Shown here: positions 43,805 through 51,761 of the stretch, piece after piece
How positions within the stretch are numbered: the first letter of the stretch is position 1
How the letters are laid out: each line of letters begins with the position of its first letter
The notes under the pieces: model-generated
What the model saw: only the letters and a program-made list of their open reading frames with translations
What the model was told of the DNA's origin: nothing
Database searches by the model: none
Program-made: the position numbers and the translations under genes
NCBI GenBank assembly: GCA_947369085.1
Contig: CANBJR010000007.1
Location: 1-64,000, forward strand
Source of the DNA: an uncultured Clostridia bacterium
GTDB lineage: Bacteria > Bacillota > Clostridia > Oscillospirales > Acutalibacteraceae
Direction: 5' to 3'
DNA: 64,000 nucleotides

Positions 43805-43819
43805 AACTAAAGTTATTAT

Positions 43820-43837
43820 GGGCGGAGAAATCCGCCC
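43820..43837 (+). terminator. Terminator of the queA-tgt-yajC cluster
   Basis: GGGCGGA, GAAA tetraloop, TCCGCCC (43820-43837), then GTTTTTATAT. Confidence 0.92.
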
Positions 43838-44008
43838 GTTTTTATATAATTCACCTAATAGCAATTTCCAAAAATATACTATTAAATATTTGAACAAAAT
43901 TTTTAAAAATATGGAAATATCATCAATATTATGTTATAATAAATCAGATAGTATGTTTTTTAAAAGAAAGAATACGTAAATATAGATAATATAGAGGAGA
44001 TGTTTATT

Positions 44009-46243
44009 ATGTCTGCACACATAAAATTACCGGACAATCTTAAATCATGGAAAATCATCTCTCGTCTGCCTGATGATAACGGCAACGAGATTTATAAAGT
44101 CAGCAAAAAAGATTTTGACGGAACAGTAATTTCTGCCATACTCAGATATGTAGTAATAAAAAATGATGACTATAACATTGAAAGCACTGATTTTATCAAT
44201 GACGAGGCTTCATTTTTGAAAACCATTTCTCAGTTGGGCGATTGTTTTAACTATCTTGATATTTTTGTAAATAATAACCCAGCTAAAAAGAAAATTGAGT
44301 TTTTCATTATTTCTGAGGATCTGCAAACCTTATCAGAGGTTATGAAATCAAAGAATTTCAGCGAGAATGAAGTTATTGATTTTGGCATACAGATGAGCGC
44401 CATTCTAGAAAAACTTGAATCAAAAAATATTTTTCACGGCAATATTAATCCCAGTAATATTTACGTTTCATTTGACGGAAAATATAAGCTCAGCGGATTT
44501 TCTGACTACGAGAGCAAAATTGATGATATGTCATTTATTGCCCCGGAAATATATAAAAAAGAAAATGCCGACTTTACAACTGACATATACTCACTCGGCT
44601 TGATAATGTACGCAATGAGCAACGACGGCACTATCCCATTTGAAAGCGCAGAAATAAGCCGTGATGACGCTATAAAAATGCGTTTTGATGGCAAAGCTGT
44701 TACTGCTCCGAAAAACGGCAACGAAAAGCTCAAAAGCGTTATTGTTATCGCCTGCCAGCCGAATAATGAAAACAGATGGAAAAATGCAGGAAATATTAAG
44801 AATGCACTCACTTCTATTAAAAGCGAAACAGCTAACAGTGCGTTGAATGAAAATTTGATTATCCCGGAAACGACCGATTTTGACGGTAATGTATTTGAAG
44901 AATACGATTATAACGAGTTTGACGCTTCAGCTAAATCAGCAGCAGAGGTTTTCCCTGTTGACGGTACTGTTTCCAATCAAGTCGACAATTTGGAAAATAG
45001 TGACGAAGATATTCAAAATCAAGATTCTGAAACTGAAAGCACTGAACCTGTTAAAGATTCACAGACAGAAAGTGAGAATGAATTTGTTCAAATTGAAGAA
45101 ATCTCTAAAGTAACAGACAACACTAATACGGCTGAAGAACCAAAGGTTTTGAATCTTAAAAGTGATGAAAACACGGAAATGCCTGACAAACAAGACGAGC
45201 CAATTAAGTCTGATTCAACGAATGACAAAACAGAAAATAACAATAATTTTGAAATTGACAACAGAGTTTTTGAATCCTTTGAGGTTCAAAGAAAAGCAAA
45301 GAGCTTTCAGGAACAGGCAAAAGAAAAGGACTACGGAGATTTCTTTGAGGACTCTGCGCCTATTGTAAAAAGTGAACCTAAAAAAGATTCTTCCGAATAC
45401 GATGTTGAAAATGACAAAGAGCTTAACATTTTTGAAACAGATGAATTTGATGACGAAGAACCGGCTAATTCATCAAAAAGCAAGAAAAATGCTGTAATAA
45501 TTACAATATGTGTTATAGTCACTCTTGCAGCTATCGGATTTATCGCCTATTGCCTATTTGGCGGACTTGGTGGAAATAACAAAAACGATTCTACAACCGC
45601 ACCTACTGAAATTGCAACTACCGTTCAAAATACAACTCAAAAATCAACTACCGTACCGCCTACAACTGTTGCTCCGACTACCGTTGCAGTTGACAAAACT
45701 GTTACACCCGTTGTCGGTTACGGCTACAGTTATGCAAAGAAACTGCTTGAACAGGAAGGCTTTACAGTTGAAATCGGTGAGTATGAGTATAGCGAGGAAT
45801 GGCCTGAGGGATATGTAATTGCCCAGTCGCCGTCAGGAGATACCGCAGCCAAAAACGGAACTGTTGTAACGCTTGATATTTCCCTTGGTTTAATTGAGGA
45901 GGAAACTACTGTCGCTCCGACTGACGCACCTGTTCAGGCTACAAAAGCTCAGCAAGGTACTGACAACAGTTACATTTTTGCTAACAGCTCTTCTGCATAT
46001 TTAAGTAAGTCAGACGTATCTTCCCTAAGTGACAATAATCTTAATCTGGCTTTAAATGAAATTTATGCAAGGAGAGGCAGAATTTTCAAAGATTCCTCGC
46101 TTTCAAGCTATTTCGGTTCTAAGTCTTGGTACACACCAAAGTATACTGCCGAAGAATTTTCTAAAGAAGTAACCTTCAACAATTATGAACAGGCGAACCT
46201 TCAGCTTATGATTGATGAGCAGAAAAACAGAGGCTTGAGATAA
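44009..46243 (+). CDS. Pseudokinase-PASTA-YARHG single-pass membrane protein
   Basis: 744 residues. An N-terminal protein-kinase-like domain (about 8-275) keeps an APE motif and DIYSLG but lacks catalysis: the HRDxKPxN loop reads HGNINPSN (143-150), and the DFG region reads SGFS (about 162-165). A long acidic linker, one membrane helix (about 493-515) and a Thr-rich spacer follow. Then come one PASTA domain (about 564-629) and a C-terminal YARHG domain (about 660-741, with NEIYARRGRIF). Known: PASTA kinases sense muropeptides or lipid II; YARHG is an extracytoplasmic module of unknown ligand. Inference: an envelope sensor or scaffold without phosphotransfer. ATG 44009 has GGAG upstream. Confidence 0.85.
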   Translation: MSAHIKLPDNLKSWKIISRLPDDNGNEIYKVSKKDFDGTVISAILRYVVIKNDDYNIESTDFINDEASFLKTISQLGDCFNYLDIFVNNNPAKKKIEFFIISEDLQTLSEVMKSKNFSENEVIDFGIQMSAILEKLESKNIFHGNINPSNIYVSFDGKYKLSGFSDYESKIDDMSFIAPEIYKKENADFTTDIYSLGLIMYAMSNDGTIPFESAEISRDDAIKMRFDGKAVTAPKNGNEKLKSVIVIACQPNNENRWKNAGNIKNALTSIKSETANSALNENLIIPETTDFDGNVFEEYDYNEFDASAKSAAEVFPVDGTVSNQVDNLENSDEDIQNQDSETESTEPVKDSQTESENEFVQIEEISKVTDNTNTAEEPKVLNLKSDENTEMPDKQDEPIKSDSTNDKTENNNNFEIDNRVFESFEVQRKAKSFQEQAKEKDYGDFFEDSAPIVKSEPKKDSSEYDVENDKELNIFETDEFDDEEPANSSKSKKNAVIITICVIVTLAAIGFIAYCLFGGLGGNNKNDSTTAPTEIATTVQNTTQKSTTVPPTTVAPTTVAVDKTVTPVVGYGYSYAKKLLEQEGFTVEIGEYEYSEEWPEGYVIAQSPSGDTAAKNGTVVTLDISLGLIEEETTVAPTDAPVQATKAQQGTDNSYIFANSSSAYLSKSDVSSLSDNNLNLALNEIYARRGRIFKDSSLSSYFGSKSWYTPKYTAEEFSKEVTFNNYEQANLQLMIDEQKNRGLR

Positions 46244-46288: not shown

Positions 46289-48007
46289 ATGAAAGAAAAA
46301 ATACTTAATATACTGAAAAGTAATTTGTTTTTTGCTGTTGTAATTAATATTGTTATAATGCTATTCTGCATTGAAGTAACTACATTTTCTTATGACAGCA
46401 GCAAAGACTTTTACCATTCGCTGTATATTTGTAATAATCATTTTTACTACAGCAGTTCAATAAATTACATACTGTCTACTATAATAGGTTCGGTTCAGTA
46501 TGTATTTGACGGTTTTAACTGCTTTGTTTTGGCACAAATTCTTCTGTCATTTGGTGCTTTTACTTCAATCACTTTCGTTTTTGCCGACAAATACAGCAAA
46601 AGAAAATCAGCTGTTATTACATTTCTTATTAATATTCTTTTTGCATTAAATCACTATGCCGATATACACAGCAGTAAAACAGCGGCTTTACTGGTTACTG
46701 CCGGATTTCTGCTCTTGCTCAATTCAATCAACAACAAACGTTATAATCTTCCCTGTTGGGTTGGTACTGCAGAGGTTGCATTTGGTTCATTCTTTGATTA
46801 TAAATACTTTTTCATTGGTCTTGCCTTTGCAGTTGCGTTTTTTATTGGTGATTTAATTTCAAAAAGAAAGTACAAAATTGCATTTCGTAAGTTTTTTTGG
46901 TATTTCAGACCGTTTTTGATTGTTTTTGCACTTGTTACTCTTCTTGTGACAGGGCTAAATCAATACTCATATTCTGTTAACCATGCTACGGAAGAAGCAA
47001 CCAATTACTATGAATATGAATACACCACAGACTTAATATCTTCCCTGCCCTATCCGAATTACGCTGAACACAAAGCAGAACTGAGCAGTGTGGGAATTAC
47101 TACGGAAAATGAGTACGAGCTTTTGAAAAACGGCTACATTGACCAAAGTAATTCGCTTGGTATCACTGCTCTGAAACTTGTTTCGGATATTCAGCAGAAA
47201 GAAAACAGCAAAACTGTACTTTTTGTTACCGGCAATATTTTTTCTGATATTGCATATCACCTTGTTTCTTTTGACTGCTACGCAATAATTTATATTGTAT
47301 TTATTGCTTTATCAGTCTTTTTTATTGTTTTTCAAAAACGACGTTTTGCATTTTTCCCTTTCCTTTATATTGCAACGGGACTTGCATCAAGCATATTACT
47401 TCGTTATTTTTTCTCGGGAGAAACTTTCCTTGTTTACGGGATATGGCTTATGATGTACATATTTTTACTGTACTCGTTTAATTTTGAACAAGTGCGACCG
47501 CATAAGAATCCTCCTGTACTTAGAATGAAAAACAGTTATATCTTCATTTCGGCAATCTGCGTTATTTGCCTTTTCCTTTGCTACAGCATAGTATTCCAGA
47601 ACACAGCAAATCCAATTAAAGAAAGTGAACGACCTCAAAGTCTTTTTGCAGAAATTGACAGGCATCCCGACAGATATTATGTTCTTGACCCAAACACCGG
47701 TAACGAGTATATGAAATATACCGAAAACTATATTCATCCGCTTTGGGGTTTCCGATATGGATTTCTTGATAATGTAGACGGTTTCGGATATTTTCATAAT
47801 TCAGAGGAACTGCGCAAACGTAATTTGTCAGATAACATTTACAAGGCTGTTCTGACATATAATAAAATATACGTTGTTGATAAAAATATAACCTTTAGAA
47901 AAGAGCGTTATTTTACATCTAAATATGCTGAAAACGGTAAAACAGTAAGCTATAATCAAATTTCCGAATTTGACGGATATAAAATTTATACTGTTACGCA
48001 AAAATAA
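46289..48007 (+). CDS. Polytopic membrane protein, possibly GT-C-like
   Basis: 572 residues with about ten membrane helices, then an extracytoplasmic C-terminal domain (about 445-572) ending in a beta-rich tail. Between helices 1 and 2 lies an acidic, aromatic loop (SYDSSKDFYHS). The topology resembles GT-C glycosyltransferases or O-antigen-ligase-type proteins, but I see no firm catalytic motif, so this is only an analogy. It starts 45 bp after the pseudokinase gene and shares the strand, so cotranscription is likely. A hairpin terminator follows. Confidence 0.7.
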   Translation: MKEKILNILKSNLFFAVVINIVIMLFCIEVTTFSYDSSKDFYHSLYICNNHFYYSSSINYILSTIIGSVQYVFDGFNCFVLAQILLSFGAFTSITFVFADKYSKRKSAVITFLINILFALNHYADIHSSKTAALLVTAGFLLLLNSINNKRYNLPCWVGTAEVAFGSFFDYKYFFIGLAFAVAFFIGDLISKRKYKIAFRKFFWYFRPFLIVFALVTLLVTGLNQYSYSVNHATEEATNYYEYEYTTDLISSLPYPNYAEHKAELSSVGITTENEYELLKNGYIDQSNSLGITALKLVSDIQQKENSKTVLFVTGNIFSDIAYHLVSFDCYAIIYIVFIALSVFFIVFQKRRFAFFPFLYIATGLASSILLRYFFSGETFLVYGIWLMMYIFLLYSFNFEQVRPHKNPPVLRMKNSYIFISAICVICLFLCYSIVFQNTANPIKESERPQSLFAEIDRHPDRYYVLDPNTGNEYMKYTENYIHPLWGFRYGFLDNVDGFGYFHNSEELRKRNLSDNIYKAVLTYNKIYVVDKNITFRKERYFTSKYAENGKTVSYNQISEFDGYKIYTVTQK

Positions 48008-48092: not shown

Positions 48093-48128
48093 AATGCCGA
48101 CGGAATGAAAATTCATTTCGTCGGCATT
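48093..48128. terminator. Bidirectional terminator between converging genes
   Basis: AATGCCGACG...AATGAA pairs with TTCATTT..CGTCGGCATT, with one bulge, followed by TTTT. It separates the polytopic membrane protein gene from the LRR/Ig-like gene. Confidence 0.85.
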
Positions 48129-48146
48129 TTATTATTCTAAAATATT

Positions 48147-50372
48147 TTATTCTTTAGCTTCAGGCTGAACTGTTGCTTGTGTTGACTCCGTATGATCTTC
48201 AACAATTAACTGAACTGATTCTTGTGCTAATTTGGTATCATCAATGATTACAGGTGATGAACCGACTTGTACCTGGTCTTCCGGAATATCATCTTCTGTT
48301 TTGTTTACATAAACTGTGCAGAGTGCCGTTTTTCCGTTATAAGTTGTAATCTTTATTACTGCAACACCTGTTCCCTTTGCCGTAATTTGAGCCTTATTTC
48401 CGCTGTCCTTAGTCACCGTTGCAACATTTGAATCTGAGCTTTCCCATTTTAAATTAGCTGAATTTGCGTATGAGCCGCTGTTTGTGGACTCGGAAATAAC
48501 AATTTTCTCACCTGATTTTAACATAAGTTCGGTAATATTTAGCTTAACGCTTGTCGGTGCAGGCCTTACTGTTACCTTACACTGTGCAGTTTTGCCATTG
48601 TAGAGCGTAATCTTTACATATGCTGTGCCTACTCTCTTTGCAATTATCTGAGCCTTATTTCCACTGCCCTTTGTTACTGTTGCTACAGAAGTGTTTGTGC
48701 TGCTCCACTTAAGGTTATCTGCGTTAGCGTAAGTTCCGCTGTTGGTGCTTTCGGAAACTGTATAAGTTTCACCTACTCCGAGTATAACACTTGCAGGGTT
48801 AGTCTTTACGCTTGAAGGCGCATTTCTGACATTTACCTTGCACGTAGCGGTTTTACCGTTGTAAGTTTTGAATGTAATTGTTGCTGTTCCGTTTGATTTT
48901 GCTGTGATTTTCGCTTTATTTCCGCTTGTTTTTTCAATTGTAGCAACCTTTGAATTACTACTTGACCACGTAAAGTTTCTTGCATAGGAACCGCTGTTTG
49001 AACACTGCGAGATTATGTAATTTTCTCCCTTGCCAAGAATTATACTTGAATTGCTTAGAGTAACGCTTGTTGGCGCTGATTTTACAGTCACTCTGCAAGT
49101 TGCACTCTTACCGTTATAGGTTTTTACGGTAATATCCGCTGTGCCGTTTCCTTTAGCAACAATTTTTGCCTTGTTACCGCTTGTTTTTACCACCGTTGCA
49201 ACCTTTGTATTTGAGCTGCTCCAATTAAATCTCCAAGCATATGAACCTGAATTAGTGCTTTCGGAAATTATAAATTCTTCACCCACACCTAAAGTCAATT
49301 TGCTTGTACTAACCTTAATGCTTGACGGTGCGGCTTTTACAGTAACTTTGCAGGATTTTGACATACCGCTTACTGTCTTAACAGTGATAGTAGTTGTTCC
49401 TGACTTTTTAGCGGTTACTGTTCCGTTTTGATCAACAACAGCTACGCCGTTATTACTGCTGATCCATTTACAATTTGAAGCACTCGACGGAGATACACTT
49501 TTAATTAACGTATATTTTTCTCCTACACCTAGAGTAAGGCTTGTTCTGTTAATAGACATTGATTTTGCAGTGCTTCCATCAACAAATTTAAAACCATATC
49601 CCTTTGCATAATCCTCAGCAAGAGTACCTCTGGCACCACAAATTTTAAAATTATTCATTTTTTTCGGAGCACCCTCATTCCCGTCAGGTGCACAAAATCC
49701 AAATGCACAATAATCAATATGTTCTATTCCATACGGAAGTGTTATACTTGGCATATTAGGGCACTCAAACGCTGCACCTATACCAATATACTTTACAGAA
49801 TCAGGAATCGTGAATGCTTTCAAATTGTGATTATAATACGCGAGTTCACTAGCTATACCAACCGTTCCCTGTTTAAGAGAGATTTTTGATATTCCGTCCT
49901 TTGAATCACAGGCATAATTGCCAACGTAAAGTACATCGTCATTCCAGTTCTTCGAATTATTAGCATATGCAGTACCGTAAAATGCATCCATACCAATAAG
50001 AGCCACATTATTTTTAATAGATATTTTTTCAAGATTACGACATCCTGCAAAAGCATTATCTCCGATAGCTATAATACTTTCAGGAATCGTAACACTCTTC
50101 AAAAAATCATTATGTACGAATACATTAGCAGCTATTACACATACCTCATATCCGTCAATTGTTGACGGAATTGTCAGATTACTCTCATTGCCTGAATAAG
50201 AAGTAATTGCCGCAAGATTCTGACCGTCAGATGCAAAATATTCATAAGTAAAATCACCATATACTTCTTCTGCACTCACGGTAAACGGTGCACAGGCTAA
50301 GATTGAAAACATCATTATTACTGTTAAGAATAAAGATGATATTTTTATAATTTTATGTTTTTTAGTTTTCAT
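48147..50372 (-). CDS. Secreted leucine-rich-repeat (BspA-like) protein with five Big_2 Ig-like domains
   Basis: 741 residues. Signal peptide (1-34); BspA-type leucine-rich repeats (about 55-250) with TIPESIIAIGDNAFAGC and TIPDSVKYIG units. Five bacterial Ig-like (Big_2) domains follow (about 273-350, 352-440, 441-528, 529-616, 617-705), each opening V..S...L..GE and ending TITVKT/CKVTV. A short acidic tail has no sortase signal or membrane helix. Such proteins are surface adhesins or carbohydrate-binding proteins. It starts 18 bp after the M56 peptidase gene, suggesting that the BlaI/M56 pair controls it. How it is retained at the surface is unclear. Confidence 0.85.
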   Translation of the reverse strand: MKTKKHKIIKISSLFLTVIMMFSILACAPFTVSAEEVYGDFTYEYFASDGQNLAAITSYSGNESNLTIPSTIDGYEVCVIAANVFVHNDFLKSVTIPESIIAIGDNAFAGCRNLEKISIKNNVALIGMDAFYGTAYANNSKNWNDDVLYVGNYACDSKDGISKISLKQGTVGIASELAYYNHNLKAFTIPDSVKYIGIGAAFECPNMPSITLPYGIEHIDYCAFGFCAPDGNEGAPKKMNNFKICGARGTLAEDYAKGYGFKFVDGSTAKSMSINRTSLTLGVGEKYTLIKSVSPSSASNCKWISSNNGVAVVDQNGTVTAKKSGTTTITVKTVSGMSKSCKVTVKAAPSSIKVSTSKLTLGVGEEFIISESTNSGSYAWRFNWSSSNTKVATVVKTSGNKAKIVAKGNGTADITVKTYNGKSATCRVTVKSAPTSVTLSNSSIILGKGENYIISQCSNSGSYARNFTWSSSNSKVATIEKTSGNKAKITAKSNGTATITFKTYNGKTATCKVNVRNAPSSVKTNPASVILGVGETYTVSESTNSGTYANADNLKWSSTNTSVATVTKGSGNKAQIIAKRVGTAYVKITLYNGKTAQCKVTVRPAPTSVKLNITELMLKSGEKIVISESTNSGSYANSANLKWESSDSNVATVTKDSGNKAQITAKGTGVAVIKITTYNGKTALCTVYVNKTEDDIPEDQVQVGSSPVIIDDTKLAQESVQLIVEDHTESTQATVQPEAKE

Positions 50373-50390
50373 AATATTCTCCTTTTAATT

Positions 50391-51761
50391 TTATCCACCA
50401 TAATCCCACTGTGAATCAGGCATTGATTTATATGCTTTTTCTTCAGCAGACGGCTCCGGCTGATAATTGATTCTTTCATATTGTTCTACCTGTTCATTAA
50501 TTTCTTCGTAAGCATCACTTACCTGTTCATTATATTCCTGTGTTGACTCATAATCAAACGGCGTAATAGGAACTAAATGATCAGCTACAGGGTCATAAGA
50601 ATTGCTGTCATTCTGGTAGCTTTCATCTGAATTAGAATAATCGTAATCATCTGCTGTTTCACTGTCGTCAACAAATTCCTCTGACGATTCGTTTTCAGTA
50701 ACCGCTTCTGACTTAGCGCTGTCTTTTTCCTTTTTATCAGAAATTTGTGGTTCTGTTGACTTTACTGTCGGTTCTGCAACAGGGACTGTAGTCGGAATTT
50801 CCTCAAAGTCAAAAGATACATTGCGAAGATTATTAATTGCAGATGACTGACTAACAGATGGAATTTGCAAAGCTGATGTAATCGGATTAGTCATAAATGA
50901 CAGTGCAGTTAATATACAAACGGCAAATGAAAGAATTATTATTCTAACCGTAGGCTTTTTGTAGCTGAGAACGCTTTTTATTCTCTGTTTTAAGCCGCTT
51001 TCACCGTACGAAAACGGACAAGCTGAAAGAAAATTATGCTCAATACTACAGGAAAGAAGCGCATTTGAATAGCCTTTTTTGCTTTTCGTATCAAAATTCT
51101 TGATTACCCTTTCATCACAAGCAAGCTCAATGTCATTTGTAAAAAGTTTAAAGGCAATCCAACATAGAGGATTAAAAAAATGAATACTCAAAATAAGATA
51201 TCCGAGTGGTTTCCATAAGTTATCGTGATGATTTATATGTTCCTGTTCATGCGCAATTACATATGTAAGATCTTCTTCGCTCAAGTTTGACGGAATATAA
51301 ATCCGAGGTTTGATAATTCCGAAAACAAACGGACTTGAAATGCGATCGCAAATTCTTATATTATCATTAATTACAATACTTTCCCTTATTTTTAAACGCA
51401 AACGCCAATAGCTGTAAAACATATAAATGAGCATTAAAGCAAATCCAACTGCCCATATATAGCTTAAAATTTTAATTATATCAGCGTCGTGTATTGTATT
51501 AAATCTATCGGCACTTACTGACGATGATACATATGAAACTGATGAATTAGACGTTGAATTTATGGATTGTGCATTCAAAACAAGGCTAAACGGCGATTCA
51601 AACGAAATCGGTATAACCAGTCTTAATGCGACAAATAACCATAAAATCCAGCTTGTCCACTTAGGTGCTTTCCTAAAAATAAGTCGCAGAAGTATTACTG
51701 CGATTATAAGCATTGTTGCTGCAATGCTCATATTAAACATCCTTGTAAAAATAATATCCAT
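50391..51761 (-). CDS. BlaR1/MecR1-type M56 membrane metallopeptidase
   Basis: 456 residues. About four membrane helices; the cytoplasmic zinc peptidase domain has AHEQEHINHHDN (H171, E172, H175) and a downstream ELACDE glutamate. After the last helix (about 300-318) comes a 140-residue extracytoplasmic, acidic, Ser/Asp/Tyr-rich tail instead of the penicillin-binding sensor domain of BlaR1. Known: M56 proteins cleave a BlaI/MecI repressor after sensing a signal. It lies 15 bp after the BlaI-like gene. The signal is therefore not a beta-lactam bound to a classical sensor domain. Confidence 0.9.
   Translation of the reverse strand: MDIIFTRMFNMSIAATMLIIAVILLRLIFRKAPKWTSWILWLFVALRLVIPISFESPFSLVLNAQSINSTSNSSVSYVSSSVSADRFNTIHDADIIKILSYIWAVGFALMLIYMFYSYWRLRLKIRESIVINDNIRICDRISSPFVFGIIKPRIYIPSNLSEEDLTYVIAHEQEHINHHDNLWKPLGYLILSIHFFNPLCWIAFKLFTNDIELACDERVIKNFDTKSKKGYSNALLSCSIEHNFLSACPFSYGESGLKQRIKSVLSYKKPTVRIIILSFAVCILTALSFMTNPITSALQIPSVSQSSAINNLRNVSFDFEEIPTTVPVAEPTVKSTEPQISDKKEKDSAKSEAVTENESSEEFVDDSETADDYDYSNSDESYQNDSNSYDPVADHLVPITPFDYESTQEYNEQVSDAYEEINEQVEQYERINYQPEPSAEEKAYKSMPDSQWDYGG

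Follow-up and report, generated by a model that had tools for sequence, protein, structure and literature searches.

Canonical PASTA kinases (PrkC/Stk1/PknB, NF033483) combine a kinase fold inside the cell, a transmembrane (TM) helix and several PASTA domains outside, and their catalytic residues are intact. The YARHG domain was described together with a Firmicute protein, D4L881, in which kinase, TM, PASTA and YARHG parts follow one another, and peptidoglycan or some other ligand outside the cell was suggested as its binding target (Coggill and Bateman, 2012; PMC3355149). Ligand sensing by YARHG has also been proposed from the structure of lpg2210 (PMC3848476). The kinase-PASTA-YARHG architecture has been in print since 2012. 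D4L881 is treated as a kinase phosphorylating targets, with neither catalytic loss nor a partner gene described in the available text, and it is compared here by description only (PMC3355149). Here we describe a receptor of the same domain order, encoded in a stretch of 64,000 nucleotides (the window) from an uncultured Clostridia bacterium of the Acutalibacteraceae, a gut organism of Ruminococcus type (GCA_947369085.1, contig CANBJR010000007.1, positions 1 to 64,000, forward strand). Its kinase domain has lost the catalytic residues, and its gene is paired with that of a membrane protein predicted to have a GT-C glycosyltransferase fold. We consider it on balance probable that the two genes act as a unit, in which a non-catalytic wall receptor regulates or scaffolds the GT-C protein.

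Among pseudokinases, MviN of Mycobacterium tuberculosis (ActPs3) resembles this system in that a pseudokinase is tied to a membrane protein of envelope assembly, with a short activation loop and an outer binding domain. MviN, however, is one protein with a transporter part and belongs to another phylum, whereas the membrane protein of the present system is encoded by a gene of its own (available text of PMC12599244). A Pfam search found no MurJ-type transporter domain in the receptor, which has one TM helix and lacks the one-protein organization of ActPs3. By analogy, MviN may be taken as the nearest precedent, in logic, for the receptor/GT-C module. CD2148 of Clostridioides difficile is likewise a kinase-like protein anchored in the membrane, with links to PrkC and to cell separation, and its catalytic residues are degraded, but it carries no PASTA domain, and no GT-C partner is reported for it in the text available; that it is a pseudokinase was not excluded by its authors (PMC9674922). 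In the available text of a 2025 pseudokinase review, YARHG occurs nowhere and PASTA once, in the reference list (PMC12599244). Searches of the open-licence literature on pseudokinases, PASTA, YARHG and GT-C proteins brought up neither this family of pseudokinases nor its pairing with a GT-C gene; within these searches, both the conservation of the catalytic loss and the partner with its GT-C fold appear to be new.

The coordinates given for the receptor gene in an earlier note on this DNA, made from the letters alone, are correct. An AGGAG motif sits 9 bases upstream of the ATG at 44009 and directly abuts an alternative in-frame ATG at 44000; the start at 44009 fits given this spacing and the length of the closest homologue (P0001, 744 residues). 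The single PASTA and single YARHG domain given in the note were confirmed by Pfam scores above the respective cut-offs (Pkinase 47.3 bits, PASTA 46.3, YARHG 69.3, the last against a cut-off of 27 bits). Hydropathy predicts one TM helix, and the lysines on its N-terminal side place the kinase part inside and the PASTA-YARHG part outside, by prediction. The protein thus has the layout of a YARHG receptor, with YARHG C-terminal to the TM helix and a signalling-type domain inside. This inner domain has the bilobal fold of Hanks-type protein kinases, with PknB and Stk1 as the nearest solved folds. Membership of the PrkC/Stk1 family itself was rejected (NF033483 scores 80.7 bits against a cut-off of 450, and the catalytic residues are lost); the receptor differs from that family in these losses, in its one PASTA domain and in the added YARHG.

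Catalytic death of the receptor kinase domain is well supported by sequence comparison. In the window protein the Gly-rich loop, the VAIK Lys, the HRD Asp and the DFG Asp are all lost. The note had recognized HGN in place of HRD, the loss of the metal-binding Asp and the survival of APE (residues 178-180) and DIYSLG (residues 192-197), all of which held; the losses of the Gly-rich loop and of the VAIK Lys are additions to it. In an alignment of the window domain with 31 orthologues from the genus (32 sequences, to which all residue counts of 32 refer), the DFG Asp is lost in all 32, the VAIK Lys in 31 (Thr in 14, Arg in 11, Leu in 3, Ala in 3, Lys in 1) and the HRD Asp in 29. Invariant positions include αC Glu66, His143, Gly144, Pro179 and Glu180 of APE, αF Asp192 and Gly197, and αI Arg256, and the catalytic-loop Asn is retained in 31. 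A database search returned 1288 homologues; in the best 120 of these, HGN is universal, DFG is replaced by GGF in 119 and by SGF in the remaining one, and the catalytic-loop Asn is replaced by Asp in 87. The spacing from DFG to APE is 12 residues, compared with 21 in the active relative L023; such a shortened activation loop is a feature of ActPs3, though not specific to it. The kinase domain is under strong purifying selection, as judged from a low ratio of nonsynonymous to synonymous substitution rates (dN/dS) after leaving out the more distant pairs, in many of which the synonymous rate (dS) is saturated. Sequencing error or gene decay was rejected as an explanation, the losses being common to many contigs and genomes and dN/dS being low; homologues with intact residues, named in the note as a sign of artefact, are not seen among the 31 aligned genus orthologues, each of which lacks the DFG Asp. 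By sequence, the domain would be classed as a pseudokinase, a kinase fold whose catalytic loss is conserved across orthologues, and phosphotransfer by the receptor is not to be expected. Of the interpretation offered in the note, catalytic death stands on sequence and conservation, while a role in binding signals with no transfer of phosphate follows naturally as a hypothesis.

The partner gene, which the note had not picked up, begins 45 bases downstream of the receptor gene on the same strand. Its predicted structure has the membrane fold of GT-C glycosyltransferases; the fold is like that of ArnT, PMT, STT3/PglB and AftD, at 5-12% sequence identity to GT-C-type structures. Asp40, in the predicted first outer loop, is invariant in all 47 family members and, by analogy with GT-C families, is presumed to be the catalytic acid. 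DUF7649 matches 19 of the 47 members at E 0.01, the three scores given all lying under the cut-off.

The pairing of the receptor and GT-C genes is well supported. Among 100 genomes of the genus, the receptor is found in 37 (E below 1e-60), and exactly these 37, but none of the remaining 63, also carry an orthologue of the partner (E below 1e-90). The next-best receptor match, in G308 at 4e-36, is of the active type described below, and the next-best partner match, also in G308, lies at 2e-31 with 26% identity. Nineteen receptor loci (L017, L079-L096) were compared for synteny, and in 18 the two genes are adjacent and in the same order; the remaining one, L093, breaks off at a contig end within the receptor gene. 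The partner gene is cut in L086 and L092. In L079, L084, L090 and L092 the pair is retained though queA, tgt and yajC were not found upstream. Across 300 genomes of the family, full-length receptor matches (residues 1-744) occur only in the window genome and in G259, of the same genus, and the same two genomes hold the only close matches to the partner; proteins 20-25% identical to the partner occur in four more. The other receptor matches in the family are confined to either the kinase or the outer part, with the exception of one in G100 (25% identity over residues 84-631).

An order-wide profile of the domain, run on 295 genomes, gives 499 bits for the window protein and at most 153 bits in another genus; the nine stronger non-window loci that were opened, one per genome, all carry HRD and DFG. 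A full-length nucleotide-pattern scan of genome contigs returned three loci in two assemblies, one of a Ruminococcus sp. and one of a Clostridia bacterium, and these are the named relatives. In a tree of 49 kinase-like sequences (24 of the 32 pseudokinases and 25 others), the pseudokinases form a single clade (support 100/100) nested in a broader kinase group whose members mostly carry HRD and DFG; given a warning of meeting long branches, the placement of the clade next to any particular sister is provisional. Two receptors of the same architecture and genus, L097 (in G308) and L098 (in G302), are of the active type, with Gly loop, Lys and DFG intact and HGD for HRD. They are about 35% identical to the window receptor and lie at a different locus, and in the search of the 100 genus genomes G308 and G302 showed neither a window-type pseudokinase receptor nor a close orthologue of the GT-C partner. 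Shorter proteins in genomes of the genus and family (for example G323:C3:150-932, L024, L030, L033 and L041) match the TM-PASTA-YARHG part of the receptor, several of them with zinc-ribbon-like N-termini, and the outer module is therefore also found in non-kinase proteins. Another genus of the family encodes a third degenerate receptor type (L045, G100:C1:98878-100530), with HSH for HRD, the Gly loop lost, a DFC that retains the Asp, and a TM stretch followed by a different C-terminal part without the YARHG motif. L045 has no HRD-like pattern and is absent from the tree.

Table 1. Features of the receptor locus (positions in the window; residue numbers refer to the receptor)
Feature	Position	Strand	Remarks
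Terminator-like hairpin between DUF3792 gene and receptor gene	43818..43839	+	Consensus scan; weak
Promoter-like site, extended -10, upstream of receptor gene	43912..43940	+	Consensus scan; weak
Pseudokinase-TM-PASTA-YARHG receptor gene	44009..46243	+	Open reading frame, 744 residues plus stop
Pseudokinase domain, residues 1-277	44009..44839	+	
Arg at VAIK Lys position, residue 46	44144..44146	+	Lys in 1 of 32 aligned
HGN replacing HRD, residues 143-145	44435..44443	+	N 28, D 3, S 1 of 32
GFS replacing DFG, residues 163-165	44495..44503	+	Gly at Asp position in 32 of 32
Linker motif PETTDFDGNVFE, residues 286-297	44864..44899	+	Pattern in 28 of 32, some of these cut sequences
Linker motif EIDNRVF, residues 415-421	45251..45271	+	Pattern in 19 of 32
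Linker motif KDYGDFF, residues 440-446	45326..45346	+	Pattern in 27 of 32
TM helix, residues 495-513	45491..45547	+	Hydropathy 2.85 over 19 residues; lysines at N-terminal side
PASTA domain	45698..45883	+	Pfam match
YARHG domain	45968..46213	+	Pfam match
Partner gene	46289..48007	+	572-residue polytopic membrane protein, predicted GT-C glycosyltransferase fold
Terminator-like hairpin, 16 pairs, 3' of partner gene	48093..48128	+	Consensus scan

The features of the locus are collected in Table 1; the conserved linker motifs are likewise new relative to the note. The consensus scans found 5 terminator-like sites against 3.6 expected by chance and 34 promoter-like sites against 20.6 expected, and their sites are accordingly weak. 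Convergent with the receptor unit (48147-51761, minus strand) lies a gene for a protein of secreted type, which contains BspA-like leucine-rich stretches together with five bacterial Ig-like (Big_2) ones, adjoined by a gene for a BlaR1-type M56 peptidase; both are also present in L017 and unmatched in the 18 other receptor loci.

The same genome encodes, outside the window, a second and more widespread PASTA pseudokinase, again unmentioned in the note and here called PSK2, which may be a more important find than the receptor. PSK2 (553 amino acids; contig C3:41834-43492, minus strand, equivalent to L005:724-2385 and L162:3832-5493, both minus) consists of a zinc-ribbon-like start, a kinase-like domain and two PASTA domains. 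It has HYA for HRD, and lacks the DFG Asp, in all 15 aligned sequences, and a match (E below 1e-80) is found in 93 of the 100 genus genomes. In the window genome and in six of seven others read, its gene lies directly 3' of a prpC-prkC-rsgA(-thiN) cluster, in which the non-kinase names (prpC, rsgA, thiN) are presumed. PSK2 lies about 5 kb from thiN in G364, and among the PSK2 loci read L163 and L167 showed no detectable thiN. Three FHA proteins are encoded in the window genome. One is fused to an FtsW/RodA-type protein (contig C26 near 32026, equivalent to L099:193-1617, minus strand) and, from its domains, could read phosphothreonine at the machinery of wall synthesis. The other two, one of 1540 amino acids, lie with a kinase-like gene having YRD and DFG at C36:786-11955, which we take to resemble a type VII secretion locus.

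What the computation supports at this locus is a kinase fold with lost residues, the conservation of that loss, the receptor layout, the gene pairing and the predicted GT-C fold. In the mechanism proposed, the dead cytoplasmic kinase fold would be kept as a protein-binding scaffold, and the outer PASTA-YARHG part would read the state of the cell wall. The GT-C protein, its active site facing outward, would use a lipid-linked sugar at the outer face, and the receptor would couple wall state to its placement or activity, either by way of its membrane or outer part or by way of partners bound to the pseudokinase and the linker motifs. The linker itself may be a phosphorylation target of a genuine kinase such as PrkC. 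The ligand, physical contact between the two proteins, control running from receptor to GT-C protein, the sugar and its acceptor, and enzymatic activity of the partner are all supposed in this scheme. A more specific version, which we hold tentatively and think rather doubtful, is a dedicated module in which the dead PASTA-YARHG kinase senses peptidoglycan state and directly gates the GT-C glycosyltransferase, in bacteria that also carry the near-core PSK2, whose gene closes the PrkC cluster.

Several observations weigh against the proposed unit. Three orthologues (L069, L075, L076) retain HGD and one (L053) retains Lys at the VAIK position, although the DFG Asp is nevertheless lost in all four. 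YARHG is missing from 5 of the 32 receptors and is thus not essential to the receptor type. A sequence profile of the partner gave no match to the PDB up to E 1, so that its GT-C assignment rests on predicted structure. A mirror-tree comparison of kinase part and partner gave a partial r of 0.77 on the 10 of 20 genomes that had all eight genes, but unrelated neighbours reach 0.53-0.56, and the value is not relied on. The rest of the neighbourhood is also largely syntenic among carriers, and PSK2 is mostly at least 71% identical to that of the window genome in carriers and 49-66% in most other genomes; judged by PSK2, most of the 37 carriers seem to belong to a single sub-clade, so that their co-occurrence does not count as 37 independent events. 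The receptor could then be a dead or idle remnant, its GT-C link reflecting shared descent of a syntenic block. We judge this distinctly unlikely in view of the strong purifying selection and of the four loci in which the pair stays joined without the usual queA-tgt-yajC genes. G377 and G386, whose PSK2 shares 76% and 86% identity with the one in the window genome, also speak against it, since each lacks receptor and partner together, in assemblies that are 86% and 76% complete.

The main rival reading, an unlikely one in our estimate, has the receptor acting by way of PrkC. In it the receptor would chiefly serve PrkC, or some other active kinase, as a decoy, a substrate or an allosteric partner, through dimerisation with the kinase or phosphorylation of the linker, and the GT-C neighbour would be secondary. 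The same genome does encode a canonical kinase with three PASTA domains, and CD2148 was phosphorylated in vitro only with PrkC present (available text of PMC9674922). In an MviN-like version, phosphothreonine in PExTDF would recruit an FHA protein, as the MviN pseudokinase tail, phosphorylated by PknB, recruits FhaA (available text of PMC12599244); a candidate Thr motif and the three FHA proteins, one fused to FtsW/RodA, are present at the level of sequence, and only within this version is the FHA link retained. PrkC and PSK2, however, also occur in genomes without the receptor, whereas the GT-C gene tracks it, and the Thr motif, a linker phosphosite candidate by sequence only, is absent from 4 of the 32. 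Very improbable, finally, is a repurposed nucleotide-dependent activity of the kinase domain, as in SelO or SidJ, or residual kinase activity. Other enzymatic activities are known among pseudokinases (PMC12599244, in the text available), and the retained αC Glu66, the catalytic-loop Asn and the three HGD orthologues would suit such an activity, but the joint loss of Gly loop, VAIK Lys and DFG Asp, the five different residues at the VAIK Lys position and the replacement of the catalytic-loop Asn by Asp in most of the best 120 homologues argue against it.

Bacterial pseudokinases are common, and few have a known job (available text of PMC12599244). The receptor offers a functional lead, a neighbour with a recognisable enzyme fold that tracks it between genomes. 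If the dedicated module with direct gating of the GT-C protein is real, wall sensing would be coupled to surface glycosylation without phosphotransfer.
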